A DNA stretch of 64,000 nt from Hydractinia symbiolongicarpus. Taxonomy: Eukaryota > Cnidaria > Hydrozoa > Anthoathecata > Hydractiniidae. The first letter of the stretch is position 1. Each line of letters begins with the position of its first letter. The stretch lies in assembly GCF_029227915.1 (NCBI RefSeq), contig NC_079889.1, positions 8,990,001 to 9,054,000 on the forward strand. Direction: 5' to 3'. This document shows positions 4,901 to 63,184 of the stretch, piece after piece. Below the pieces are notes generated by a model. That model made no database searches, was not told the origin of the DNA, and worked only from the letters and a program-made list of their open reading frames with translations. A program made the translations under genes and the position numbers.

Positions 4901-7900
4901 TTTAAAAATGATTGGTTCAATGTATCTCTTATGTGAATTGTAAAGAAAAGCTGTTTTAGGGTTAGCTAATTTTGAATTTTATTTGTTACAAATATTTACT
5001 CGCTTGTTTGCTTATTTGTTTCTTTGTCTACTTCTTTTGTTTCTTTATTAACATCATTATGATACCCTTTTGATAATGGCTTTGCATACCGCCTTACACA
5101 GCACTCGTAAAACAAGCAAAAAACCAATCAAATCATCAGCATCTCTATACTGAAAAAGTCTTCGTATCAGTCAGGTAAACATACCTTTATCATCATTGTA
5201 TGTGTGATCAGTAGATGGACCTGTATTCACAGATGAAGTTTTACCCTGACCAATGCTCCAATCAAATTGATCATCTTTCGCGTTCGTCCAACCGCACATA
5301 ATTGGGTTTGTTTCTTCGAATGAACATTCCACTAAAAATATAAAAAAATATATAATATAAAATAAAAATATAAAAACAAAACACATACAAAAACCAAGAA
5401 TTAGCCTGTAGGTGTTAAGTCGATGCATGAAGAAATGTTACATCAACGAAACATTTTTTTGGCTTATTAATTTGTCAGCTCAGTATGCATTTTAAAATTT
5501 TAAAATAAATAAACGTGTTTGCATGCATAGCAATTTATTCAACAAAATATTAATAATCACAGGCCTCTATTAGTCAACTCCACTAACAATGGCACAATTA
5601 CTAATCACCCCATTGCAACAAAAACTTTACTGTACTTACATGGTCCTTGGCAAGCTCCCTTTGTGACTTGAATATCATCAATAGAAATATCTCCTTGATA
5701 TCCATTACCTCGAATAGCTTCAATTACGTACTGCAATACAGAAAAGGTGAAATACAACCATGATACAAACACAAAAGAGCAATATGTAGAGAAATTAAAA
5801 TAGTTGCCTTGTTTAAACTCGGAAAGTTCACATGAACATCATACCTGATTGTCATAAAATGTAAAAATAAAACCTATATGTTTAGTTCCATAAATTCTTT
5901 TCTGGTAAAAACTTCGCATTAAGAACTTTACTTCACCCAACTAAATGCAATTGGCAAACCATACCTGATATGAGCCTTTGTAATTCATATAAACATGAGC
6001 TGCTCTCCACTGGTCTCCATGTGAACCATACTTCGACCAAATAGGAGTACCTAATGGTCCATTTGGATTTTTGACATAAACATTTAATTTGTTTACGTGG
6101 GCTCCATACATGTGATACCAGAAATTCAAGCATTGACCAGTTGAAGTGGGAGGAGATAAAAGGCGTGCTGTGTCATTTTGTTTTCGTGGCTTTGATGTTT
6201 CAATAAAAGCATACCATCCCATTGCTGAAAGAAACGAATCAACAAATTACTAATTAGCGTTTAGCTTTGTTTCAATATATTAGATGAATGGATTGAGGGA
6301 TGTAAATATCACCACTTGGATGAAGTCAAAAGAAAATAGTTCTTAAACAAATTAGTCTGGATAATTTTAATGGTCGTTTTCCTGTCACAAGTTTCATTTA
6401 GACTGTGTCTGTGAGAGTAAGGTAAATTTCATAATGCATTTGTATACAGTGTATTACACGTACTGTCTTGTTTCTATCCTTTAAAAGAAAACAATTTGAC
6501 TAAAAAACGAAATTCAATGAAAAGCTTTTTACGAAATATGAATTTTGTAAAAACTGAATTATCTATGATGAATTGTCTCATCAACACGTAACATCATAAA
6601 AAAAAGTCGAATTTGAGATTAAGCGACGCCTTATAAATACATCTTAAAATGAGATAAACAATACAAAATATATGTCTTCAATACATGACAACATTAAAGT
6701 CAATGTTACATACTTGGAACAAACACAAACTGTTTAGATTTCTTTGAGCATTCTTTGTAAACAACAAGATATTGATTATTCGGTGGATTGTAACTACCAA
6801 GATAAGGTGAGATGCACATTTTTGTAGGTTGATGCTGAAATGCACCGTTAGCTAGCATAGTCCACTTTTCGTTGCACGATGATGATAGACCAATCTTAGG
6901 AAAAAGCGTATTTTTAGTCAAAAAGGTTTTATGTCAGAATTCGATTACGTTATTTTTGAACATCACACAAAATTCTATGATTTAAATTATTTGAAGTTAA
7001 AACACAGTTAGCACAGTGAAAATATACGACAATTTAGCACTTGAAAGTAAGAATAAATAATAAAAATAAATTTGTCACCTTTGCACCCGATGTTGCTGAC
7101 TGTCCACCAACGACTGCAATGCACATCTTCCACATTGTCATCTTAAATGAACCATCAGGTTGAAGAACAAACTCAAGGCGATCTTGTCCACATCCATTAT
7201 AAACAACAAGAGGTTGCATTTCTTTTGGTTTTTTAAAGGCACCATTTAAAACATGAATGCATTTACCACCAGAATGTTTAATCGAACCAGGACCTTGTCT
7301 CTGGACAGCTCCTAAATACCCATTAGATCATGTCAATTTTTAAAGAATTACCTACTGATTCTAAAGACAATAGCATCTTGAAACTGCTGCAAGTACAAGC
7401 AGAGAAAAAATAGTGGTACTCAATCTTGGTTACAAAAACATGCTTGCACTATAAAACAATTATAAAGAAATTGATTACATAATGTCGTGTGAAACAATAA
7501 AAAATAAAACTATGCATACCTCTTCCAAATGTGTGATCTCCAGAAGGACCTGTTCCTACAGAATCTGTAAAACCTTGCTTTCGTGTCCAGTTAAATACAT
7601 CACTTGAATCTTGTTGAAGAGAGCACCAATCTTTTTCAAAATTGCAGCCTAGTGTTGAGGGTGCTAAAACAAATACAGTGTGAGACTTCAGATCTTGATA
7701 AATCAATATGCGAGGGGAACGTGCAACACAAATTTTCCATTAACCAAAGATTAAAATCTAATAAAATTTCCTGTGTTTAATGTGTGAAAATATGGTAGGA
7801 AGAGATGAGGTTCAATCAAAGTAAAGAGCACATTATTTTCCAAAAAAGCTTTTCTTTGAGGTCAATTCAGACTTAGCTGGCTAAAAGGTGGATACAAAAA

Positions 7901-10900
7901 ACATCATGCACAACTAACTTTAGGGTCAATGTAAAATTTAATTAAATACCAATAGTTGTTGGACGTGTTTGTGGCAAAGGAGTAGTTGGTTTTGGTGTTC
8001 CCTTGCCATTCGGATCAGCCTCTGGTGGTTGAATTGAGCAGGCTAAGTTTGTATATTGAATATCATCAATGGCTATATCTCCCTTGTAACTTTTTCCGGC
8101 AATTCCTTTAAACATTATCTATAAAATATATCAAGTTGTATTAAACACAACAAAACACAACAGTAATCTAAGTACATAGAAAAGGTTAATGCAAACAGTT
8201 AATCAAGAAAAAATCTTAATAGCAGTGATATTAAATCAAAAAGAAAAAAGAAGCAAGCACACACTGAGCTAGAAAACATGAAACAAGAATGTGGATAAAT
8301 CAGCCTTTTCCTTTCTGTCGACTTATGTTGGAATTAACAGGTAACTGGCTTTGAAGGAAATGCCAAACAGTTCTCGACAACAAAACTTAGCTTACCACAT
8401 GATCAGCATCCATGCTGATTGGAACACGACCTGGTTTCCATGGGGATGTTTCAGAGTTGTGTTGTTGACCAGTCAAATTCCAGATTAAAGTCTCTGGTTG
8501 GGACCCTGAAAATACTTTGTAAACAACTTGTAGGGTTCCGATGTCAGCGCCAAACATGTGATACCAAAAGTTTAAGCATCGTGGCTTTCCGCCAACTGAA
8601 TTAAATTGTTGACTCATTAAAATGGCTGTATCACCTTGTTTGATTGGACTAGATACCTCTAAGTACACATATGAACCTAAAAGAAAAAACACGAAACAGG
8701 AGTCAACTTGGTTTTCCCTCTTGTTTTGTTTCAAAGCAGGAACATTACTTTGCCTTTTCATGACTAACTCACAACACTTTTAATAGGTCAATCTTGTCTT
8801 GTACTGTGTTGATTCTAATCTCTTTTTAATGGTTTTAAAGATTCATTAAAATTCTGCCTAATACCACTTACTTTTTTACTACTTAATAGCAAGTTAGTTT
8901 TAAATTTCAGGCCTATTCATTATTACCTATTCATGCTGAATTTTCACTTACCATTAGAGTTGCCAAGAGTATGATCAAACTTTGGACCAGTAAAGGATGA
9001 TGGCGTACCAGCACTTCCAACTATCCAATCAAATGTGTCACTTTTAACATTTCTGTAGGAGCACATACCGTTTTCAAAGTCACAAAATCCTAAAAAAATA
9101 AACCGCAAAAGTAAATCGATAAGTAAGTAAGAAATACAATAACAATTAAAAAAATAATTTCATGTTGGGGAAATGAATATATCAAGAAAGCGTCCTGGCT
9201 TGTTTGGTGATTAAAACAATAAATGCAAAGCAATTTTTCTATATATTTTTATTTCTTTATCTTTGTTTTTCTTACAATATAATTACATTAATGACTTATT
9301 ACTTTGATTGTACCACAATGTTTAGATTGTAAACGGGACTAGAAAAGCTGTTGAAAACGCTACAAAAACGTTAACAGTAAGTAATCTAATAATTTCTATA
9401 ATATCATGTACTTAATGACAATGACATCATAAAGACAACTGGTTCTATTACAAGCAAAAATTTTAAATTGTAATTAAAGCGTACTTTTTAAAAAGGATTT
9501 TTTTTCACCGAAAAAGTTGTTCTAGGTTAAGGTGTCATAGTTGGCACATTTGTGAATTCTATTTTTGTAAGTCTTTTTTGTGTGCGGGGGGGGATATTAG
9601 CCAATATAGGTGCATTTTTAGAAAATAGACATAGATATAATCACAATTTTGGGATTATATCTATGAGCTTTAACAACGTTATCAGAACAGAGGGTGTATC
9701 ACAAGTTGTCATTCCTAAATCGTAACTTGCCATTCCTAAATTCAAATGTTACGTTTACGTTAATACGCATCAAGTCACTTTTATATGAACATGGGAAAAT
9801 TTTAACATCTACCATTTGTGAGAGGTTTTTATAATAACCTATTATTTTAAGATCTGTCAGTTGGTAATGAAAAAATATTCACTAATTACTTGTAAGCATC
9901 AGAATTTAAGACTAACCTCCATGCAAACTCTAGCCTGTACAAACAGTGCTATCACAAATAAATATATTTGCTATACCTGGTGCTGCACAAGGTCCATTTG
10001 ATAGTTTGATATCATCTATAGCTATGTCACTTCGAAACCCTGAACCAATTTTGCCTTCAAATGCAATCTAAAGTAAAAAGATTGCATTTTTCCCAGTAAT
10101 AAAGAAACATAGATTTTAACACCATACCTTTTTTAACGAAAAGAAATATAGGAGGAATGTTTTGTGGCAAAATACTTTTTGTTACCAATAGTCAGTATAA
10201 AGCCATAGAAAATCATGTACTTTATAAAAATAGTGTGGAAGGAAATATAATAATACGAAAGTTTGGTTTGATTAGAGTTGTCTCCTATTTTGGGAAAAAA
10301 TGTTTCAAACAAGCATGAGAATGGTATTTAAATTACATGTAAATAATTCTACCTGAAAAGTGTCTGTGGATGAAATTGTCTTTGTTGCTATTTTCCACAC
10401 ATTCCCTTTGTCTCCAGACTCAGACCAAATAGGTATTTTTTGTAGCACATTTCTCACTTTTAAAAATACTGACAGAGTACCCATATCAGCACCATACATG
10501 TGATACCAAAATTGTAAACATTGGCCTTGGGTTGCAGCATTGACAGGGCTAAGAATACGAGCTTTGTCGCCATTTTTTTTGTTACTTGCTTCAGTAAACA
10601 TGTAAAAGCCATTACCAGATTGTAGTGTGTGATCATTAGTTGGACCAGTTTCTAAGCAAAATTAATGACAACATTTTTTTAACAAAATTATTCATTTAAT
10701 AATTAGTAATATTTACATTTAAGTTTTGGTTAGAGAATCTAAACAACTGATTTTTTTATGTTTTTTGGTACAAATGATTGAACAAAAATTACGTTCATGC
10801 TAAAGGCAAAACTTTATCATTACTTAACCTTGTATCACGTAGCCCTGAAAAAAACGGAAGGCGAAGTTACGAGTTTTTCATGATGTACACTTGAAGAAAA

Positions 10901-48964: not shown

Positions 48965-51373
48965 AACCGTTTGGTTGCGATGGGAAGAAATGCTAGTGCT
49001 TAAAAGTTTTGTTTAAACCTCTTTAATGAGACAACTGGTATTTGCGCCCGTCTTTAGAGTTGCATAGTCTGTCGAGTAATTTATAATTGTGTTTATATAG
49101 CGAACTATTTTTGTCAGATATATATTTTGTTTCGTTGCATTTTTGTGTGTTTTGGTTGTTTATTATTAGAAACAGAAAGCTAGTGGTTAGTTTTAAGACT
49201 TATTTTTCTTTTCCTTATCAAGTCGGACATCTTTTAATATTAGAATGCTTGTTAAACAAAGTATCAGAACTTCAATTGATTGTGACGTTATTATAATCAG
49301 AAAATTATGCAAATAATAAGATTCGGCCCCAGGTTGTTTTGTTAATATACTATAACGGCCATTTTTATATCACCTAATTCATAAACTTTTCACAGTTTCA
49401 CTATAGCTCTTTCACTATAGCTCTTCGCTTTTTCTGTCTTTGCTTTACTTGGAATAATAAGGAGCGTCAAAAACGGAGCGGAAAGATCGAAGAAATAAAA
49501 GTGACCCCTCATCGTTTTGAACAGCGTGAATACGGACAAATTGATTAATTTTTCTAAATTTTTCCATATTCTTGGTAAATTTTCTTCTCAGCTCAGTTAA
49601 ACGCTACCTTTATCTCAATAAGGCCTAAAATGAAATAAAATTGTGAGAAATACTATAATCGTGAAAATAATTCTCCGCAAAATTATTAAAATGGTTCACT
49701 CGCGAAAAAATGAACTCTGCGAAATTTCTCGGCATGGCAGATTCGCAATATCTTGGCATGACAGATTCGCAATATCTCAGAATGACAGATTCGCAAAAAT
49801 TAATCTTCGCGAAATGCATATTCTTGGATCTCGCGAAAATAAGTCTTCGCAGCAATTTATCAATTTAGTAATAGCAGAGAAGGTTCAGGCGATCTCGATT
49901 AATCAAGTGTTTTCACAAAAAATTTACAACATCAAATTTAGCCTCTAAACACATACCCGCCACGAAAACGCAAGGAATGCACACAAACATAACTGACGCA
50001 AATGTATACAAAAGTCTTATATTTCTTAGTAAAAAAAAAAGAAGTTTATCTTAAGTGGGGGAAAAAAACTAGCAGCGGGATAACGCTCTTATATGTGTCC
50101 CATAGATTGTTACTTGTTTTTCAATTGCACAAATCTTTCCGGCCGTATGATTATTTTCACCAAATACGCGAAATTTGGTTCCTGCGAAATATTCAAGATT
50201 TCATGCGCGAAAATTAATAATTGTACAATTTTGTGTCGGTACTCACAAAGAAAATGTAACACTGACGACGAAATCATAACAAAGGGTCATTAAAGGTTTA
50301 CTTGTTGTGTGAAGGCTTTTCTTTCACAAATATTTCCTAACATAAATTCCCGAAATTTATTAACCGCGAAAAATTTTACAAACAATCATCCGCAAAATGT
50401 ATTTTTTTTCAATCCGATAAAAAAGATACCTTCAAGGTAGATAGGAGTCCATGTTTGACATGGCGTTTGTTCATTCTTAAGGCTGTTTTCCACTTCAAGA
50501 AAATTTTTCCGCGGAACAGAATGGAAAGGAACAGAAAAGCTTCTGAGCATGCGTACTAAAATTGTTTACATCACGTGAACGGAAAATTTTCTTGTCCGTT
50601 CCGTTCCGAGCAATGTAGAATCGAGTTCAACTTTTTCTTTCCGTTGGGTACGGAAACGACAGGTAGAAAATTTTTTAGCCAATCAGATTATTTTATTTCG
50701 TGAGAATTGCGCAAAGTGTGTTTACTTTCTGTGTTGAAATGTGCGCAATATTTTGAAGTGGAAAATACTTAAAGAAAATTTTCTGTTCTGTTTTGTTTCT
50801 GTCCGTTTCGTTCCTCGGAAAATTTTTTATAGTGGAAAATAGCCTTTAACATAGTTGGGTTGTATAATAATAAGTGACGATTGCAAAGTCGATTTCTGCA
50901 TCGTTTTGTTTTTTAACAAGTTTTTAGTCAGTCCAAAAAATACGCGCAGTCTCACTTCTCCACACGAATTCTGCGTGTAATACGAAAAGTGTGTTTAACT
51001 TTATCAGTTGTTTCTTTTCTACTTAAAAAGGGGAATTGAGAAAGAATATATCAGAGTGAAATATGGTCGCAAATAATGTGATGACACATCAGGCCAGGTA
51101 AAACAAATGGCAAAAAAAAAACATATGATTTTAATTGTTTTAACCTTGTTAAACGATAAATACAATACTACTCTTTTAGTTCACAGGGCCCCCTAGGATT
51201 TTTTGCGTTGTGACGCAATTTACATATTCGTCTTGCTTAATCTTCTCTCTCACAACTCAACGGTGCGCAAAACATCGAGAATACATTAATCATCAAAAAC
51301 GGCGAGTTACATATATGTGCCATAAAAAACGAGCTAGCTGGCTGGCATTGTATTTTTATGTTTATTACCTGAT
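48965..51373. other. Region between the ZNF367-like gene and the large transposon
   Basis: No gene recognised. It contains a short tandem repeat at 49731-49798 (about 24-bp unit with GACAGATTCGCAATATCT), several GCGAAA-rich stretches to about 50400, and a 366-bp MITE (50480-50845). Confidence 0.65.
50480..50845. mobile_element. 366-bp Harbinger-like MITE
   Basis: The left end AGGCTGTTTTCCACT matches the reverse complement of the right end, AGGCTATTTTCCACT. Both are followed after a few bases by an AAAATTTT-CCG-GGAAC stretch. Flanks are TTA on both sides (50477-50479, 50846-50848), as expected for PIF/Harbinger insertion. It is non-coding. Confidence 0.7.
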
Positions 51374-51545
51374 TACGATGGCTCTGAGGGGTCACACTTC
51401 TGTCATAACTTTTTTTTACTTCTGCACTTTTTTTGAAAATACTTCTGCACTTTTTTTTGAAAATACTTCTGCACTTTTTTTTGAAAATACTTCTGCGCAC
51501 CTTTTTTTAAAATACTTCTGCAATTTTACTTCTGCACATTTTTTA
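51374..51545. repeat. Left TIR and subterminal repeats of the large transposon
   Basis: After the 30-bp TIR, about six copies of ACTTCTGCAC followed by a T-run occur up to about 51545. They mirror the right-end repeats and are likely transposase-binding sites. The coding potential of this strand is only a by-product of the repeats. Confidence 0.85.
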
Positions 51546-51920
51546 AAAAAACTTTTAGGAAGGAACTTTATTTAAATATGGCGGATATAAACAGATCGTA
51601 AAATGCAAATATTTTGGTGCAATATGTTAGCTAGGCCCCAGCCCGAAGAAATTGTAGTTATTAAAATAAAGTTTACTTCAGTCCTCAATAATAATAATAA
51701 TAATAATAATAAATATTTAAAGTGGCTAGCCCAGAAAATCACAAAAACCTATAGTTAGTGGATTGTTTCCACTGGGGGCCACTAGAACAAAAAAGAAACA
51801 AAAAATGATAAACCTTAGACTGCCTCAGCTCAATCAAACATAGTAACATTTATAATCTGTGAAAATTGAAAAGAAAAAGAATAAAAAACAAAAATTAAAA
51901 AAATTAAAAAGTGATCTCCA

Positions 51921-52003
51921 TTAGAATTTGCCAAATACATTAGAGATTGAAGTCTTAAACGAAAGCAGACTTCCATCACAGGTCACTTGGTCTGGGAGAT
52001 TAT
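51921..52003 (-). pseudogene. C-terminal end of the LINE reverse transcriptase ORF
   Basis: N-L-P-D-Q-V-T-C-D-G-S-L-L-S-F-K-T-S-I then a stop at 51921-51923. It continues the frame of the segment ending at 58436 if the TTAA-flanked insert is removed. This is the standard C-terminal tail of CR1/L2-type RT proteins. Confidence 0.75.
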
Positions 52004-55000
52004 ATGGTGGTGGACCAACAGTTCACCACATGTTAATTGCGGTTCCTGAAGTAAGTACTTATACCTTGTTGAGAGGCTTGGCTTTGATTGCATTCAGTAT
52101 TCAAGTGTCAACAAAGATGGCTACTAGCATCATTGAAGGATATACTTTAGAAACTCAATGTTATTTCAAATCTAGAATGGTAGACTAGTGAAAAGGGTGG
52201 TCACAAGGCATGAACATTAGGGGCCCTCAAGGTAACTAACCAATACTGTTGTAGATCCAGGCCCCTAAGATTGCCTTGCCTACCTATAAATTGGGAACAG
52301 CTAAAGTCAACTAGTTTCCATCATCACATTTTGCTAATAGTTTGGTTTGATCATCACATTTTGCTTAACTGAAATAATTTTAAGCTAGCTCCACGTTTTC
52401 GGGAAGCATCTATCACTGCAACCTACTAATATCATCAACTCCATCTTTTGGCTTCAATTACTATAATGGTAGTGCATCCAATGACAACCAATGACTGTAG
52501 CAAATTTTGGATCATGTACCTCTGGTATCAGGAGAAACCTTCAGATATTTCTTCAGGACAGATATTGCATGTAGCCAGGTCGGTTTGTTTCATTTTATAT
52601 ATTATATCAGGTTAGGAGCCCAGAAACTGTCACTTTTTAACCACCCTAGAGCCATTATGGCTTTTATACAAGTAATGCCAACCTTGTAGCCAGGTTGCCA
52701 TTATGATAACTCGTTATGTTATGCATAGTGTTGTTTATGGTCATTCACCGCAATAGACGATCATGATACGATCCTGCTCCAACCTGTATATAGTAAATTG
52801 TATCTGCGTGAAAATTTGGCCTCGTGTTTTCCCTTTTTAATCTTATAATAGACTATACTTAGCTAGCCAGAAAAACTTCTTTTTTCCACATCCAAAATAA
52901 TATTTGCAGGCTTGTTTTCGTAAGTTATTGGTGAATATAATTGCTTTGGGGGCAATATTCAGGCTATAAATTTGGAGAAACTATATTCTGTAAAAGACAT
53001 GCTAAACGGTATCTATTACTAATAAAAATTTTGATATTTAATCTATTTGAAACATTTAGTCACATGGAAAAGGAGAAATATAGAGAAATAAGCAACAACA
53101 ACAAAACAAACTGCATTGTAAATAGGCTTTATTTGTATTATTAGATCATAGTACACCATAAACAACAACAGATAAATAAAATAAAAATAGCAAAATTATA
53201 TCATGATTTTGCACAAGTAAAGGCCGCTATATAAAATTTGGTTTTTACGCAGCAATAGCTAATTAAAAACAACACAACCTACCACAACAAGTGAATGACC
53301 ACTGATTTAGCACAACATTCAGTCAAAAATATGTAGCCCTTATTGGCTAAGACTCTAAAATGTTGAATCAAACTTGGAAATACCTAGCTGCTATGCGATA
53401 AACACTAACTACTTAAAAAATTTTAACAAAACAAATCATTTAAAAACAGATATCGTTAACTACATTTACACATTTTGTGTCAATCAGGATAGCGCTGTAT
53501 ATGTATATATGCTAAGTCATTTCGTTATGTTGGTAGAACCACAAACATTTTCCATGCCTGTCAGCATAACTTCTTTAGTGAAATGTGAAAAACTTTCGTC
53601 ATTTCACCCATTAATTAAAACCATGCTTTTTTCCTAATTTTTATAATTAACATCGTTCCCAGGAATTATCTCGATATAAGATTAGAGCTTTTAAACCAAT
53701 CATCATCAAGTCTTGTCGAAGTCATTCTCCCAAAACTAGTCACGACTAGTGTTCTCGTCTGTGGCCTTGTGGCATTTTAAGAAATCGTTTAAAAAGTGTT
53801 TATTGCCAGGAGCTTTGAATCTACAAAGCAAACATACAAGTTGTTATGCAGCTATTCGATTTATTGTATTGTTATCAAATGTCTTGTTACTTGTGGGTAC
53901 CCCAAGACAACACAAGAACTCTGAGTTTGAGACAGGCCTTTTTAGAGTTGTTGAAAGTGAAACTATAAACAGTTTCATGCTCAAACTTGCTAGCACAGCA
54001 ATAGAAAGCTCAAGAATCAATGGAATTAAAAGTAAACAGATGTACCTGAAAACGTTTTCATTATAAAGTTCCTGCTATAATTTTGTTAACTCAAAAAAGT
54101 CTGTTTATTTTGCCAAACTGCTTTCTTCTGCAATCCCAGGCAACACAGAGCATAAATGTTTTCCAGTCATGTTTCTTCTTAGCAACATTGCTCAATTTCA
54201 TTCCGCAATCATATATTCAAGCCTTCCATTTACTTGCTGCAAGTCAATACAAACTTTCTTAGCCTTTAGACATGTTGAATCCTACCCTATCCAACCGACC
54301 GGCTACCGGGAGGCAATAACAATAGGTAGAGTAAATTAATTTCAATCTTTCTTTACTGTAAATTTCGACAACTTCGGCGGGATTCTTCTTGACGTCACAT
54401 ATTGTTTGTTTTACAAGAGTCCAAAAGTCCACACTTCGGCGCGATTCTTCTTGTTGTCAAAATTATTTGTTTGTTTAAGAGGGTCAAAAGGCCACACTTC
54501 GGCTGCCGCCGAAGTCGACTATTTTACGGCAGAAAACAAGGAATCGCGCCAACAATCGGCAAAAAGCGGCAAAATGTAGTTAAACTACCGTGAAACCAGA
54601 GAGTATTGGCAATTTCTACTTAGGCGATCCTACCTCACTTTAAGTTGGATTTTTTAATATTTTTTTTTGCAATATGTGTCCAGTCTTTAGGATCAATTTT
54701 ATAAACATTTCACATAGCTGTATTTTGAATGCTACTCAAAATTGTTCGATCAGGCTATATCTTTTGTGCAATTTGGAAATCTGGAAATGCTTTTATTGTC
54801 AGTGCCCTTAATTTAGAATGGTTGGGCATATAAATACGGTTATGATTCCGATTGTATTCCCTTTATATTAGGCATTTAAATAAGTGTCATTGTAGAGTGA
54901 TTAAGTACTGTGTACAGTCTGAATGTAATCTACCGCGTACACGCTAATATTACACCTTTGCGTGGAGGACGGCAGTCGTTTGTCTTTTGTTATAATTAAA

Positions 55001-57041
55001 TCCCTTACGCGTTTTGCGAGTTTATATTTGCGTGTTAAAAAACAATGCGCTCGTGAAGAAATATTGGAGCAAATAATAAAAATCTTTCGCGAAGTTTTAT
55101 AATACATTGCGCGGGAATGTATTGTTGATTTAAGCGCGTTTCATCTAAGAAACATTCGAGAAGCATTGTTCACAACTATTAAATGCTGCTTTTCGTTTAA
55201 AAAATTCTATTGCCTCTTTTCGATTTTAAACTTTAAAACACGATCTAAAAAAGCATTTCTATCGCCGCTATTCGTTAAAACTTTTAAAATTTCTAGGGAG
55301 AAATTTGAAAACTAATGAATGACAAAATCCCAAAAGTTTATCTTCAAATTTTTAATTTTGTTAATGTAAAAGTAATCCACATGAAAAAAGTTTCTGATGT
55401 TTTATGAAGAAATCTTCCATATTAGCCATTATACATTTGCCCTAGAGTGATTAATAAATAAGGTCAGGCTTCTATTTTCAGAACTGCTATTTACATTTAA
55501 CATCAAGGCATCCAAAACAGCTCCATTTAGGAAAGGGCTAAGGCTGGCCCATTGTTCGTGTTATCAAATGGGGATTTTATTACCCGAATTGTAAAAGGCT
55601 AATTTATAGGCACTTGCATGTAGTTTTTTTTTCATGTCTATTTGTTAAGCCTGTTATGGCATGTTGAATTATCTCGTCGTAGTTCTCGTCAAAAATATTG
55701 CCTGATAGATAATGAATTTTCATTTGGGGAATTGGGAGTGCTGGGCTGCCCTGGGCAGCCACAAAGTGTAGAGATGTGCGTGTACCCCTGGAAGAGTATG
55801 GTGAATTAAGTACAGGTGCGAGGAGATGAACGACGGTGCACCACGCGAGCAGGACAGATGACTGGGGAAATAACAGCAGAGGGATGCGGCGCTGACAGTC
55901 AGAGGTGGTGCACCAAGAGGTTAATAACAGGTGTGAAATGCAAAAGAAGCTAGAGCTCATAAAGAGTAGGTTCTTGTGAGGTATGATAGAGGAAATGGAA
56001 TCACAGGAGAGGAGCTCCGGATGTGATTGAGAGATTAGTTAAGCCAGAAAACAGCTCCGGATGTAGTGGAGAAGAGCGAACACTACTAGGAGAATAGCTC
56101 CGGATGTAGTGGAGAAGAGCGAATTTATTGGGAACGCGCACGTGAGCTTGAGACAATATCTTCTCTTCAGCCTAGCATCCTCACCCGATTCCGCCAAATT
56201 ATCCTCAGTTTATTCTTGCCACTAACAATTGATAGTGCTATTACTGCTATAACTCTAAATTAAAGTACAATCCTTATTCATTGATTTTGTATTATTGACA
56301 GCAATTGTAGTTATTATTTGTCAATTTAAAGTTGTGTATTATCAGATTTTGAAAGTTAGCTAATAACATGATGGATTGCAAAATTGTCTCCTTTAAAAAA
56401 TCCAGTTTGGGGTAAATTGGGGATGTCGGGCTTCCTTCGTCAGCCAAATGGGATGAAGATGCGTTTGTTTCCCTAACAAATGAGGTGCGTTTCCACGAGA
56501 TACGCCATAGCAGGTAGTAGGCAATTTCCAAGCGAGTTGCTGAGGTGTAGGCGATTTCCAAGTGAGTCGCGGAGATGTAGGCGATTTCCAAGTGAGTCGC
56601 GGAGATGTAGGCAATTTCCAAGCGAGTTGCTGAGGTGTAGGCGATTTCCAAGTGAGTCGCGGAGAGGTAGGCAATTTCCAAGCGAGTTGCTGAGGTGTAG
56701 GCGATTTCCAAGTGAGTCGCTCAGATGTAGGCAATTTCCAAGCGAGTTGCTGAGGTGTAGGCGATTTCCAAGTGAGTCGCTCAGATATAGGCAATTTCCA
56801 AGCGAGTTGCTGAGTTAGCGTTTCCACGAGATACGCAGACGTTTCCACGAGATACGTCTTACTAAGGGTAAGGATGGAAACACACGCATCTGGTTTGGGC
56901 CCCCCTGATACCAAACCTGACATCCCCCCCCTTTCCCCAAACTCAAGTGTAGTTATGACATGAAACAAGAGAAATATACTTCTAACATTATCTGTCATTG
57001 TTGTTGTTTGCTTTCGTGTTGTTGCTTCAGAACCATAGCAA
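52004..57041. mobile_element. TTAA-flanked insertion, long copy
   Basis: It begins ATGGTGGTGGACC after TTAT (52000-52003) and ends CCATAGCAA before TTAA (57042-57045). Its first 346 bp and last 624 bp are repeated without visible difference in the adjacent short copy (57046-58431). No transposase was recognised. The unique interior (52350-56417) holds short unassigned open frames only, for example 53749-54066 on plus. Two imperfect repeats with AGCTCCGGATGTAGTGGAG lie near 56050-56125. TTAA target use recalls piggyBac/Kolobok-type elements, but no clear TIR is seen. Confidence 0.55.
56517..56816. repeat. 30-bp minisatellite, ten units (first array)
   Basis: Ten 30-bp units alternate between GGCAATTTCCAAGCGAGTTG-type and GGCGATTTCCAAGTGAGTCG-type, so the higher-order unit is 60 bp. 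GTTTCCACGAGATACG occurs just before and twice after the array. All six reading frames produce repeated peptides by chance. Confidence 0.9.
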
Positions 57042-57045
57042 TTAA

Positions 57046-58431
57046 ATGGTGGTGGACCAACAGTTCACCACATGTTAATTGCGGTTCCTGAAGTAAGTAC
57101 TTATACCTTGTTGAGAGGCTTGGCTTTGATTGCATTCAGTATTCAAGTGTCAACAAAGATGGCTACTAGCATCATTGAAGGATATACTTTAGAAACTCAA
57201 TGTTATTTCAAATCTAGAATGGTAGACTAGTGAAAAGGGTGGTCACAAGGCATGAACATTAGGGGCCCTCAAGGTAACTAACCAATACTGTTGTAGATCC
57301 AGGCCCCTAAGATTGCCTTGCCTACCTATAAATTGGGAACAGCTAAAGTCAACTAGTTTCCATCATCACATTTTGCTAATAGTTTGGTTTGCCCACCCAC
57401 CCACCCTGTTATTATATATTTTTTTTCTTTTTCTTTTATGTACATCAATCACTTCATGTACTGGCATCAATGTCCACAACCGTCACCATATTAACTAATT
57501 CTATAATCAACCACAACCTTATGTTAACTCGATAACTGGACCATCATCCGACACATGACGAGTGCATACGATACCAATTGATGTAGCCCCAGAGGGTCTT
57601 CTACAACGAACTATAACACGCAACGATACTACGAACTACAACACGCAACGATCTAAAACGCAAGATGGAGGGATCAATTGGCATCAAAGACGCGCGCTCG
57701 CTTACACCAGTGCTCTTGCCTCAAGGTTTTCTTGGTGATCCAAATTTGGCTACTTGCGATTGCCAAGTTTTTTGTCCAGAGGTAGAAGCACTGTTGACCC
57801 GCGCTGGTGGGGATGTCGGGCTTCCTTCGTCAGCCAAATGGGATGAAGATGCGTTTGTTTCCCTAACAAATGAGGTGCGTTTCCACGAGATACGCCATAG
57901 CAGGTAGTAGGCAATTTCCAAGCGAGTTGCTGAGGTGTAGGCGATTTCCAAGTGAGTCGCGGAGATGTAGGCGATTTCCAAGTGAGTCGCGGAGATGTAG
58001 GCAATTTCCAAGCGAGTTGCTGAGGTGTAGGCGATTTCCAAGTGAGTCGCGGAGAGGTAGGCAATTTCCAAGCGAGTTGCTGAGGTGTAGGCGATTTCCA
58101 AGTGAGTCGCTCAGATGTAGGCAATTTCCAAGCGAGTTGCTGAGGTGTAGGCGATTTCCAAGTGAGTCGCTCAGATATAGGCAATTTCCAAGCGAGTTGC
58201 TGAGTTAGCGTTTCCACGAGATACGCAGACGTTTCCACGAGATACGTCTTACTAAGGGTAAGGATGGAAACACACGCATCTGGTTTGGGCCCCCCTGATA
58301 CCAAACCTGACATCCCCCCCCTTTCCCCAAACTCAAGTGTAGTTATGACATGAAACAAGAGAAATATACTTCTAACATTATCTGTCATTGTTGTTGTTTG
58401 CTTTCGTGTTGTTGCTTCAGAACCATAGCAA
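57046..58431. mobile_element. TTAA-flanked insertion, short copy in tandem
   Basis: It lies directly after the long copy, sharing the TTAA at 57042-57045, and is followed by TTAA at 58432-58435. It shares both ends with the long copy but has a different 416-bp centre (57392-57807). An unassigned plus-strand open frame (57665-57907, starting M-E-G-S-I-G-I-K-D-A) runs into the shared right end. An assembly duplication is a possible alternative. Confidence 0.55.
57907..58206. repeat. 30-bp minisatellite, ten units (second array)
   Basis: A copy of the array at 56517-56816, offset by exactly 1,390 bases, with the same unit order and no difference I could see. Confidence 0.9.
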
Positions 58432-58435
58432 TTAA

Positions 58436-59021
58436 TCCACACTTTTGCAGCTCTAAATGGGAAGGCTTTTTTGCCAAATTCCGTGTTGACCAAGGGAAGT
58501 GTGAACCTGTTTTTTGAAGCTCCTCTTGTTTGATGATTATGACAGTTTTTTGTCAAAAGGAATTTTGAGCGCATGTAATCAGGAGCAATGTGATTCATGG
58601 CTTTGAAAACTAATATGGCATCGTTTTTGATGAGTAAATTATTCATTGAATATTCCCTCTCTTTCCCAAGAAAGGTACGGACACATTTTAATCGTTTTTC
58701 TAGTTTTCCCAATCTACCTTGGGTGGCACAAGCCCATGCCGAGGAGCAGTAGTTGAAATATGGCATGACAAGTGCATTAATTAAAAGGTTTTTTGTGTGA
58801 GGTGTTAAACAGGATGCAATGGTTCTAATTTTAGAATATTTAATTAGTATTTTTCTATTTATGTCATTAATGTGCTTTTCCCATTGCATTTTTTGATCAA
58901 ATGTTACCCCAAGATATTTAACTTTTTCGCTCCTCTTCAAAGGAATACCCATATAGTTGATAGTTTTGTTCTCAACTTTTTTTAACTGGCTGTGTGTTAA
59001 CTGGCTCAATGTTTTGGTCAA
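58436..59021 (-). pseudogene. LINE reverse transcriptase, post-catalytic fragment
   Basis: About 195 codons cover the thumb-like region: Y-M-G-I-P-L-K-R-S-E-K-V-K-Y-L-G-V-T-F-D, then N-Y-C-S-S-A-W, then K-C-V-R-T-F-L-G and A-P-D-Y-M-R-S-K. The open frame runs on by chance into the inserted minisatellite down to 57750, making a 423-codon chimeric frame that is not a real protein. Confidence 0.75.
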
Positions 59022-59215
59022 AATATTTTTTTTTATAATATCTTTTGTTGCTTGTTATTTTTTGGTAGGTTAAAGGTTATATAGACGCTAGCTAGCTATT
59101 TGTGTGGACCTAATGGGATGGCTTTTTATAAAAATGTGAACATAAGCAACGTTTAACTGTACTAAAATTGGTGCCTTGGGCAAACTGTATTATTTTTTAT
59201 TTTTAGTGTAAATCA

Positions 59216-61243
59216 ATGGACAATATTTTAAAGAATACCATTAGAACAGAAATCAAATCATTTATGGATTCAGAAAATACAAATAATGAAAGAAAAGAAG
59301 ACAAAAAAGACAAGGGTCCACGAAAAACAGAACAAAGACTAGGACAACTGTTATCCAAAATTCGAGCAAAGTCATCTGAAAGTGGAAGTTCACAATATTC
59401 TAGTCGACCCTCCAAAAAGTACAAAAAGTTACAACTTAAGTATGAGAGATATGATAACCTAATTAACGAATTCAAAGTGGTAAGGCTAAAAGATGGAGGA
59501 GGCCCAAGATTCGTTGACGTGGAACAAGAAACTCCTATATCATTCCAAGAAATAAAGGAACTAGCTAAAAACTTTTACTTTGATGATAACAACTGTAACA
59601 ATTTTTCAGAAAACGTTGCTGAATGCACAATTGATCTTGTAGCAATCACAGGTCAAAATATTGATGAAGATGAAGACATGTGGGAATACCTTAAGAGAAA
59701 AGGCCTTGTTATTTCTAAAACATTCTTTGTCTTAAGGTCAACATATGTAGATTTAAGTGAGGACAATTTACCTGCAGTTTTCAACAATTTTAATGAATTT
59801 AATGAGTCAATGAATGTTGAAAGTACACCCAAACGAAAATTGTGCCATACCTGCCACTGTACCTACACTGGAAGTGAATGCTTCATCTGCTTACAAAATC
59901 AAAAGTACTTGGAAAGTCTTGAAAAGGACAAGGAAAAGACTGCATTAGAACTGAACTTGACAACAGCTACAGAACTAAACGATTGTTTTGACAACGAAAT
60001 GCCAAATAGTTCATTTGAAGGAAATCCTATTCCTGATTTGCCATCAGTTGCCGAATTAAGGCAGATCAGATTAAATCTATTTACCACAGATGTACCTGAA
60101 TGTTTAACTGCAGAAAAAGAAGTAAAAGTTAACAGACACAATATAAGAAAAGACTTGATTAAAGCTTTCCAAGATGAGGTAATTTTACTGTTTGTATATT
60201 AATTATGACGGGAATTTAAGTGACAGATTTTGGTCCAAACCGTCAAATTTTCTTGGCACCAAAAGTTTTGTATACTTCCAATGATATTAAGTAAAATTTA
60301 TATTATTTACTAGATCAAGGTGAATGAGAAGATCACTTACACTGTTATTGATTCCCATGGGCTCTCAGAAAATGGTGTAGGATCAGGTGTATCAAGAGAT
60401 GTATATTCAATGTTTTGGAAAGACGTTGCAGATAGCTATTTAGTTGGTGCTGATGAGCGTGTTCCCTTTGTTAGACATGACCTCTATGTATCAGAATGGG
60501 AGGCTATTGGTAAAATTCTTGTCAAAGGTTTTATTGACACTGGATACTTTCCAATAGTTATCAGTCGTTCATTTATGCATTACTGCTTGTATGGGGAAGT
60601 GAATAATCCTGATGATCTAATAGATGGGTTTTTAAGGTATTTATCTCAAATGGAACGAACAGTTGTTCAAGAAGCACTTGCTTCTAAAAAATCTGATATT
60701 TTTACCTCAGAAGAATTTATGGACATTCTTGATCAGTTTAAGTGTCGTACATTGGTAACTTCTAGTAATGTTAAGGAAGTGGTGATTGCAAGACAAGAAC
60801 TATACCAGAAACCTCATATAATGGCAACATGCTGGAGAACTAATTTCGCCCCTCTACTAACACACCTATCAACTCCGGAATCTCTTGTTGCCTTGTATGA
60901 AAAGGTAGAACCAACGGCAAAAATGCTTTTGGCATTAATTGTTTCGAACCCTGCTAACGAGAGTGAAAGAGATGCACTTCAGTATTTTAAAAGATTTGTA
61001 CGGGGACTGGAAAATATGGAGTTAAAGCGACTATTGCAATTTTTTACTGGTTCAGAACTGATAATAGTCAATTCACTGCACATAATGTTTAAAAAAGATG
61101 TAACTGAATTCTCCAGAAGGCCAATAGCACATACATGTGGGCCTATGTTGGAATTACCATCAACTTACAACAATTTTTGTGAGCTTAGAGAGGAATTTAC
61201 AAGTATATTGAAAAAATCAACATGGGAAATAGACATTGTATGA
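59216..61243 (+). CDS. Transposon-borne HECT-type E3 ubiquitin-ligase-like protein
   Basis: Two exons, 59216-60178 and 60314-61243, separated by a 135-bp phase-0 intron (donor GTAATT, acceptor TTTACTAG), give 630 residues. The N-terminal part is charged (Lys/Glu/Ser-rich, residues 20-80). A cysteine cluster lies at 210, 213, 215, 222 and 225, possibly a zinc site. The C-terminal half resembles a HECT domain, with a G-V-G-S-G-V-S-R-D-V-Y motif early in exon 2 and the end signature A-H-T-C-G-P-M-L-E-L-P. The catalytic-type cysteine is residue 596, 34 residues before the end, as in true HECT ligases. Relatives are often annotated as G2E3-like. It lies within the transposon's TIRs and is convergent with the transposase. 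An acceptor-like TTTTTAG just before the ATG suggests an upstream 5' UTR exon. The frame is intact, so it may be functional. Substrate and role are unknown. Confidence 0.8.
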
Positions 61244-61682
61244 CTGAGTTCATATTTCTTTGTTATGTTTGGTAATATATGATCATTTACTAAAACTTCT
61301 GCTTAACTGACCATGGTGACATTTTTTGTAATTAGGAAAATACCAATCAGTTTATTTACATGCTTATGTTTTATTTTTAACTTTTTTTGTGGTCTGTAGA
61401 CATCCTTTTTTCTTTATATATTACTCACTAAGCTTTACTACGGTTTACTATTTGTTTTATGTCCTAATATCAGTACAAAAATGGGTACGAGAGTATAGTT
61501 ATGTTGCCAAAAAAGGATTTGTTATTTTGTTAAGATCTATTTGTTTTTACGATTGCAGTGTTTGTTGTATATATATGACTCACATTTGTTTTGGTTTACT
61601 AGAAAAATTACTTATTGTATGAACTTTTTAAGGAAAAAAAGCAATAAGAAAACAACAAATGTTTATATTTTGTTCAAGTGTA

Positions 61683-62843
61683 TTATGAGAATTCATCAAT
61701 CTTTTCAATAAGATAAAAATACAAATGTAGTGCCTCCTCTGGATTTTGTGGTTGAGCGATACCATCGCGATTCATAAAATGCTCTGCAAACTCCTGAAAC
61801 TCGTACGAGAAATCACAATGCTCATTTTCAGTGACCGATTGGAATTCATTAACTTCCTGGGGATGCACGTTTTGTAAACAATCCTCTGCGTCAAACAAAT
61901 GAGGAAGGAAAAACATAGAATCGGGACGACCACTTGGTCCACCATTATTGCTTTTTGAGATTAAATGTGAGTTCCATTCCTCAACAATTGAATTTAAATC
62001 ACTTCGAATCATTGGCATAAAACAATATCGAATACAGTCCAATATAACTGGATCGGAAGTAAAAAGCGTGTCTGAGTCAGCTAAATCCCGGAAAAAATGC
62101 CGCCACCACCCAATACGATCCCGTTGTAACATGGCCCAAAATGACTCAATTCTCTGGTTCTGTGGCGATGTTGTTATACTGAAAGATTCCTCAGCGTTTG
62201 CGCCTGAGAGTGATCTCAAGTAAACGTGAACGGGCTCGATGAGTGCATGTTCAGTTCCATCATCTGCTTTAATTGTCAAAGGAAGTCCTTTCAAATTTAA
62301 AACGGCATCTAAATAGTATCCAGCGATAACTTCAGGCAGTTTATTAGTGGTCCCTACTTTAAGCCAAATTATTTTGCGTGAAAAGCCGTCAATACATCCA
62401 TGAATGCTAAAACCATACGGCTTAAGCTTATCGTGGCCATCAATGTGCCAGACATAATTTGGGCCTCGAGCTCGGTATGCTCTTCGACGAAGGCGCCGTC
62501 TCTTTCTCCTATTTACTCCCTGTGGATCAAAATACCTTATTGCTAGCCTAACATCATCTCGTCTGCAGATTATGTCTTTTGACGTTAAACATCTATGAAT
62601 GCGACGATAGCCCAGCTCAGCTCCACTACCATCCAGTTGCTCCTTCACAGCCTGCATCACATCTGTGTGTTGATTTCTAATACTTGCCAAGGGCCTTTTT
62701 CTCATACCATAAAGACGAAACCATCTTTTTAATGTCGATAAACTAATTTTATAGTTATGATGTATACGAAGGAATTCTAGTATCTCCAGGTATGTCAGTC
62801 CTTGATTGAAATAAACCTTAATAGCATCCTTCACGCTTTCCAT
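61683..62843 (-). CDS. IS3EU-like DDE transposase (integrase core)
   Basis: A single intact 386-residue frame. Residues about 17-50 form a helix-turn-helix of the resolvase/IS3 kind (T-Y-L-E-I-L-E-F-L and S-L-S-T-L-K-R-W-F). Residues 113-127 are strongly basic. The rve-type catalytic core follows: W-H-I-D-G-H-D (D135), I-K-A-D-D-G-T (D194 or D195), P-Q-N-Q-R-I-E-S-F-W (E233), with spacing like retroviral and IS3 integrases. It should cut and join the transposon ends. No frameshift or stop is seen. The start codon lies just inside the right subterminal repeats, so the element end may serve as its promoter. Confidence 0.88.
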   Translation of the reverse strand: MESVKDAIKVYFNQGLTYLEILEFLRIHHNYKISLSTLKRWFRLYGMRKRPLASIRNQHTDVMQAVKEQLDGSGAELGYRRIHRCLTSKDIICRRDDVRLAIRYFDPQGVNRRKRRRLRRRAYRARGPNYVWHIDGHDKLKPYGFSIHGCIDGFSRKIIWLKVGTTNKLPEVIAGYYLDAVLNLKGLPLTIKADDGTEHALIEPVHVYLRSLSGANAEESFSITTSPQNQRIESFWAMLQRDRIGWWRHFFRDLADSDTLFTSDPVILDCIRYCFMPMIRSDLNSIVEEWNSHLISKSNNGGPSGRPDSMFFLPHLFDAEDCLQNVHPQEVNEFQSVTENEHCDFSYEFQEFAEHFMNRDGIAQPQNPEEALHLYFYLIEKIDEFS

Positions 62844-62919
62844 GACGGTGTAGTGAATAAGGAGATACTAGACAACTGATTAATAACGCCAAAAGTGAGT
62901 TAGAAAATTAAAAAAAATG

Positions 62920-63178
62920 CAAAAGTGAAAAAAGAAAATTGCAGAAGTAAAAAAAAAAATTGCAGAAGGGAAAAAATTTTTTGCAGAAGTGAAAAAAAAA
63001 ATTGCAGAAGTGAGAAAAAAAATTACAGAAGTGAAAAAAAAAATTGCAGAAGTGAAAAAAAAATTACAGAAGTGAAAAAAAAAATTGCAGAAATGAAAAA
63101 AAAATTGCAGAAGTGAAAAAAAAGTTAACAGAAGTAAAAAAATACTTTACAGAAGTGTGACCCCTCAGAGCCATCGTA
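62920..63178. repeat. Right TIR and subterminal repeats of the large transposon
   Basis: About a dozen copies of (A)TTGCAGAAGTGAAAAAAA, the inverse of the left-end motif, precede the 30-bp TIR. A run this regular would fold onto the left repeats. It produces a lysine-rich chance open frame that should not be annotated as a gene. Confidence 0.85.
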
Positions 63179-63184
63179 CCTGAT

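Follow-up and report, generated by a model that had tools for sequence, protein, structure and literature searches.

HECT-type genes as recurrent partners of the transposase in IS3EU-like DNA transposons of Hydractinia symbiolongicarpus

Is a ubiquitin-ligase-like gene found between the ends of a DNA transposon a working part of that element, or a passenger picked up by accident? The question is raised by a locus of the hydrozoan laboratory model Hydractinia symbiolongicarpus, where a stretch of 64,000 nucleotides (contig NC_079889.1, positions 8,990,001 to 9,054,000 of the forward strand; herein referred to as the window) holds, at window positions 51374-63178, a DNA transposon with TAC..GTA ends that encodes a HECT-type protein next to its transposase. 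For most known DNA transposons of animals, a transposase is believed to be nearly all that is required. As the same pairing recurs in distantly related element families, the HECT gene looks built-in rather than like an accidental passenger. We consider it probable (about 0.8) that this is an autonomous IS3EU-type transposon whose usual set consists of a transposase and a HECT gene, the latter maintained by selection for its action in trans as an E3 ubiquitin ligase to the element's benefit.

The window element and its two genes

Comparison of the two ends revealed 30 of 30 identical positions in the terminal inverted repeats (TIRs) and CCTGAT as the 6-bp flank on both sides. An earlier note, made from the sequence alone, had described these perfect TIRs, the CCTGAT duplication and the TAC..GTA ends together with two intact facing genes, and all of them were present: the transposase frame is open, and the two-exon HECT gene, which encodes 630 amino acids including a catalytic-type Cys, lies tail to tail with it. 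Its description of 51374-63178 as a near-intact element held for genes and termini, but 7.3 kb at 51690-59004 turned out to be a foreign insertion. This DNA is missing from the copies of the element on C9 and C13, and the window element is broken between 51689 and 59005; the element proper spans about 4.5 kb, the uninterrupted C9 copy being 4551 bp long. The features are as follows (window positions, strand, description):

51368..51373, no strand, left target-site duplication, CCTGAT (from sequence)
51374..51403, plus, left TIR, 30 bp, TACGATGGCTCTGAGGGGTCACACTTCTGT (from sequence)
51417..51542, plus, left subterminal array built from 4.6 copies of the 24-bp unit TACTTCTGCACTTTTTTTTGAAAA, followed by 2.1 copies of a 14-bp unit
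51690..59004, no strand, later insertion, foreign to the element, flanked by CTCAAT (BLAST against the C9 copy)
59216..60178, plus, first exon of the HECT gene: helices at the N-terminus, a possible ubiquitin-like domain and a zinc-knuckle-like motif
59843..59890, plus, CxxC...CxxC motif, CHTCHCTYTGSECFIC, which recurs in the C1 4.73 Mb element
60179..60313, plus, intron, 135 bp, phase 0, GT..AG
60314..61243, plus, second exon of the HECT gene: the bulk of the two-lobe HECT domain, through the stop codon
61136..61138, plus, catalytic-type Cys codon (AHTCGPMLELP)
61683..62843, minus, integrase-type DDE transposase (rva_4), 386 aa, stop-free (open reading frame (ORF), Pfam)
62910..63157, minus, right subterminal array built from 11.9 copies of a 21-bp unit, in inverted orientation to the left one
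63149..63178, minus, right TIR, 30 bp, same sequence as the left
63179..63184, no strand, right target-site duplication, CCTGAT (from sequence)

The transposase matched the Pfam family rva_4 with 114.1 bits (cut-off 26) and rve weakly, and a zinc-binding integrase domain was not among its Pfam matches up to E 1, which suggests that an upstream HHCC zinc motif is absent. By pattern, D135, D194 and E233 may form the catalytic triad. TAC..GTA termini are found in the window element, in four further copies of its family and in four diverged families. Five of six same-family copies show a 6-bp duplication, as do four diverged families (CATATT, GTATTC, GTTATC, CACAGG). All three features agree with IS3EU as described in PMC10045372 (TA..TA termini, 6-bp duplications, integrase-type transposase), so that assignment of the element as IS3EU-like, proposed in the earlier note, is supported by structure and domain. 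A core ACTTCTG is common to the TIR and the inverted 24-bp and 21-bp subterminal units, and the arrays are plausible candidates for transposase-binding sites.

The HECT protein exceeded the Pfam HECT cut-off (36.8 versus 23.9 bits), and the same splice yields a continuous frame in the C9 and C13 copies as well. The top database protein, RefSeq P0001 (LOC130657280; 99% identity over the full length), is the gene model of the C9 copy. Two residues (E-L) present in P0001 and in the C9 and C13 copies are missing from the window protein, which is therefore open but perhaps not the best copy. The catalytic-type Cys is kept in 12 of 12 aligned HECT rows, these having been picked for open frames. A structural model of the window protein displayed a full two-lobe HECT fold and, ahead of it, a possible ubiquitin-like beta-grasp domain at model residues 68-180.

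Pairing of HECT and transposase across copies, families and the genome

A genome search with the TIR returned six places with both a left and a right end. Five of these copies have perfect TIRs and 6-bp duplications that differ from copy to copy (CCTGAT, TAAAAT, TTATTG, ATTTCT, CCTGGG), and both genes or their remnants are present in all six; the earlier note had named copies consistently devoid of the HECT gene as the sign of a chance capture, which is not what we found. Transposase and HECT both read open in the C9 and C13 copies. In the C12 copy the two HECT exons match at 98% (matched as exons, not as a spliced reading) and the transposase carries two stops, while the C8 copy, which retains HECT residues 1-126 only, and the C4 copy are decayed. 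Long alignments to the window element reach 98.9% (C13), 98.8% (C9) and 97.5% (C12) identity, from which recent movement of the family may be deduced. At the C13 locus, a tandem duplication at 99.9% identity (L009 3514-5611 / 7605-9701) has copied the right part of the transposon plus flank, so that an additional right end is present that does not mark a further insertion. Two short related elements, L016 (4866-6625; flanked by CTTTTT on both sides) and L015, contain transposase remnants and match the beginning of HECT only weakly, over 13 residues; they are probable internal-deletion derivatives.

The window transposase has at least 117 matches in the genome with identities from 100% down to 30%, this count being a lower bound because 107 of 858 transposase candidates were scored. 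Among the 20 best loci, taken with 1.5 kb of flank, 19 contained a HECT match, the exception (L020) being a piece of a tandem duplication. All 14 diverged loci in this set were positive (L022-L024 at 66%, L026-L036 at 53-54%), with several of their HECT genes broken or truncated. Overall, elements whose transposases are only 28-66% identical to that of the window also combine both genes, which supports the earlier proposal of HECT as a genuine second gene. Four diverged families are bounded by TIRs of the form TAC[GC][AG]TGGC and 6-bp duplications. One is a 53%-type element nested in the C12 copy (perfect 31-bp TIRs, CATATT), in which the HECT stretch has one stop; the other three hold both genes inside:

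C14, 3928179-3932237, 4059 bp, duplication GTATTC, TIR start TACGATGGC
C2, 6633672-6638111, 4440 bp, duplication GTTATC, TIR start TACGGTGGC
C1, 4732828-4737235, 4408 bp, duplication CACAGG, TIR start TACCGTGGC

A Val replaces the first catalytic-type Asp in two (L027 and L029, on C14) of three aligned family C transposases; those open-frame copies may therefore be inactive.

A Pfam scan of the genome gave 141 HECT matches, many of them host genes. Nine near-equal matches with a 641-codon frame belong to a second transposon lineage with TATGG..CCATA termini. Its C9 copy (L062, with L064 and L065; C9 26488203-26494705) was bounded against a 99.9% identical C14 copy, and its ends TATGGAGTCATG... 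and GCAACT flanks on both sides were read by eye. In this element a HECT (5.6e-14) with a CUE domain (1e-5) is encoded on the same strand as an rva_4 transposase (3e-78). The same scan also revealed twelve loci with a nearly equal 96-codon HECT stretch; at one of them, L063 (C10 11157200-11161800), an ORF weakly matched a C2HC zinc profile, and the 4.6 kb searched gave no match to a transposase profile.

Host-gene capture by DNA transposons is well known, and a single copy or family could have taken up a host HECT gene by chance. Such an origin is highly improbable in view of the pairing in diverged families, four of them with their own TIRs and duplications, and of its presence in a second lineage with different gene order; a single recent capture is ruled out by the diverged, separately bounded families. 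Separate transposase lineages may instead have acquired HECT independently, the function being generally useful, a scenario to which we give a real chance, although somewhat below even odds. It is favored by the CUE domain and same-strand arrangement of the second lineage, whose HECT resembles that of the window group only weakly (probability 8% and E 0.004 with hhalign), and by N-termini for which no alignment between the two was obtained. The tail-to-tail group speaks against it, as its members have a common gene order and, in part, common exon-1 and zinc motifs. Taken together, HECT is, as judged from sequence, a recurrent second gene of IS3EU-like elements in this genome, and probably an ancient one.

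For the genome-wide count, 107 of the 117 transposase rows were used and merged to 106 loci, while 112 matches to HECT exon 2 merged to 85 loci. Of the latter, 45 have a scored transposase no more than 6 kb away, so that HECT is not found mostly outside such elements, the other sign of capture named in the earlier note; when loci were placed at random 500 times, the count averaged 0.28 and never exceeded 4. Tail-to-tail orientation applies to 40 of the 45. Two others (C12, C14) result from merging across nested or adjacent elements, one (C9 18652320) adjoins the C9 copy, and two are same-strand pairs (C1 28886267-28888781; C2 12261421-12262945, HECT at 12262772). Six of the 40 unlinked HECT loci were examined, and each had a transposase stretch 3' of HECT, on the opposite strand in five cases and on the same strand in one (L051).

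Seen from the transposase side, 48 of 106 loci have a HECT match within 6 kb. Among the other 58, the C8 copy keeps its HECT exon-1 remnant, five lie no more than 6 kb from a Pfam match to HECT, and seven of ten further loci of low similarity contained a HECT gene, bringing the total to 61 of 106. These seven were recognized by Pfam (L038, L039, L040 and L070, where L070 in addition shares 96% identity with L039), by tblastn similarity to the L040 HECT ORF (L068, E 4e-35; L073, 7e-30) or by exon-1 homology (L037; tblastn 5e-20, profile 2e-33). A HECT-like motif in L037 was seen by eye, in an ORF also matched by L068 and L073.

Outside Hydractinia, profile searches yielded at least 18 HECT proteins, including two that carry the name Hydractinia, and 534 transposase relatives, the best 120 of which were listed, with Clytia, Dendronephthya and Oculina named among the matches listed. 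HECT P0004 and transposase P0086 appear to lie on one contig of 35,429 bases. Contigs with rva_4-type transposases in a metagenome-assembled genome of the sponge symbiont Cycloclasticus (L046-L049) are probably sponge DNA.

Several observations weigh against the HECT gene being a standard, selected component of these elements. No full HECT gene is documented for 45 of the 106 transposase loci, comprising 42 that were not opened and three examined ones, of which L072 is similar to no more than the N-terminal part of the L038 gene (E 8e-21) and L069 and L071 had no HECT; an ORF of L069 resembles the ubiquitin-like part by eye, with Pfam ubiquitin at only E 0.07. In the far families only L038 (31.5 bits) exceeded the Pfam HECT cut-off of 23.9, with L040 (23.0), L039 and L070 (19.6 each) below it, and L037, L068 and L073 gave no Pfam HECT match, being called from tblastn or profile matches to genes of other elements. 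The C4 copy has a damaged left end and no matching left flank, and a search for TIRs or a 6-bp duplication at the C2 28.26 Mb element, a further diverged one, found none. Values of dN/dS in the young families are noisy (HECT 0.33-0.69; transposase 0.27-2.83), and outside Hydractinia a single putative contig links the two genes.

Possible roles of the HECT protein

Element boundaries, the repeated pairing in diverged families of this genome, and the conserved sequence and modelled fold of HECT all come from sequence, whereas we infer both the ligase activity and its target: the HECT protein most likely works in trans as an E3 ubiquitin ligase. In the proposed mechanism, the DDE transposase would act on the TIRs, and probably also on the inverted subterminal arrays, to give 6-bp duplications, while the HECT protein, with a possible ubiquitin-like domain and zinc motif in front, would be selected as a ligase helping the element. 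As its target we tentatively rank a host silencing or chromatin/repair factor first, with slightly less than an even chance, followed by the element's own transposase (control of its level or removal of the strand-transfer complex) as a less likely second; the host cell cycle and any other target are each improbable.

Self-regulation, in which HECT would ubiquitylate its own transposase and thereby limit copy number or extract a stable strand-transfer complex, would be a eukaryotic counterpart of the action of ClpX on MuA. We regard this as rather unlikely. The HECT and transposase trees conflict weakly, family B grouping with A for the transposase (support 99) and with C for HECT (support 67).

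Alternatively, HECT may disarm host silencing through Piwi-interacting RNA, chromatin or DNA-methylation factors, by analogy with what has been proposed for TET/JBP in fungal IS3EU and other transposons. According to the available text of PMC12730594, genes for TET/JBP and an alpha-kinase occur in fungal TET+ IS3EU elements, and the author infers silencing escape for TET/JBP. The N-terminal parts of the HECT proteins differ greatly from one lineage to another, which might be the case for substrate-binding regions of effectors aimed at the host, but this fast divergence also fits relaxed constraint, and we hold the idea to be credible without favoring it.

A broader proposal is that a ubiquitin ligase, tagging the transposase-DNA complex or a silencing factor, is an ancestral, required part of animal IS3EU transposition and that many cnidarian 'HECT E3' genes are transposon genes; this appears doubtful at present. 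If a lineage-wide ligase partnership were true, it would offer a direct handle on how transposons deal with silencing or self-control, with recent element copies at hand in a hydrozoan laboratory model. Some of the HECT genes counted in cnidarian genomes may belong to transposons, as RefSeq enters those of the present families as ordinary Hydractinia genes (LOC130657280 and LOC130625171, the latter (P0126) matching, by eye, family C element genes on C14).

The inserted DNA, and comparison with known systems

The outer parts of the insertion at 51690-59004 match a stretch adjoining the C13 copy and look by eye like a 5'-truncated non-long-terminal-repeat (non-LTR) retroelement on the minus strand, whose ORF resembles the end of a non-LTR reverse transcriptase. 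This piece is itself interrupted by about 6.4 kb of further DNA (52004-58430), in which a 300-bp stretch is directly repeated without mismatch (51999/57041), as well as a repeat at 1390-bp spacing with 30-bp periodicity (56418/57808).

In the literature searched, Repbase entries not being covered, no paper named both IS3EU and HECT. IS3EU/GingerRoot elements resemble the window element in their TA..TA termini, 6-bp duplications and integrase-type DDE transposase, whereas the words HECT and ubiquitin do not occur in the main text of their description (PMC10045372). Compared with HUWE1 and UBR5, the modelled window protein has the same two-lobe fold with the catalytic-type Cys near the C-terminus, at about 16-18% identity in structural alignments, but differs in its short N-terminal part, possible ubiquitin-like domain and CxxC/CxxC motif, and in being encoded by a transposon. 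As far as described in PMC12730594, fungal TET+ IS3EU elements, with TAYGG..CCRTA ends, likewise combine 6-bp duplications with an extra enzyme gene opposite the transposase; their extras are an alpha-kinase and a TET/JBP dioxygenase, and neither HECT nor ubiquitin occurs in its available text. As the alpha-kinase, encoded opposite the transposase, is likewise a protein-modifying enzyme, protein modification may be a recurring theme of this superfamily.

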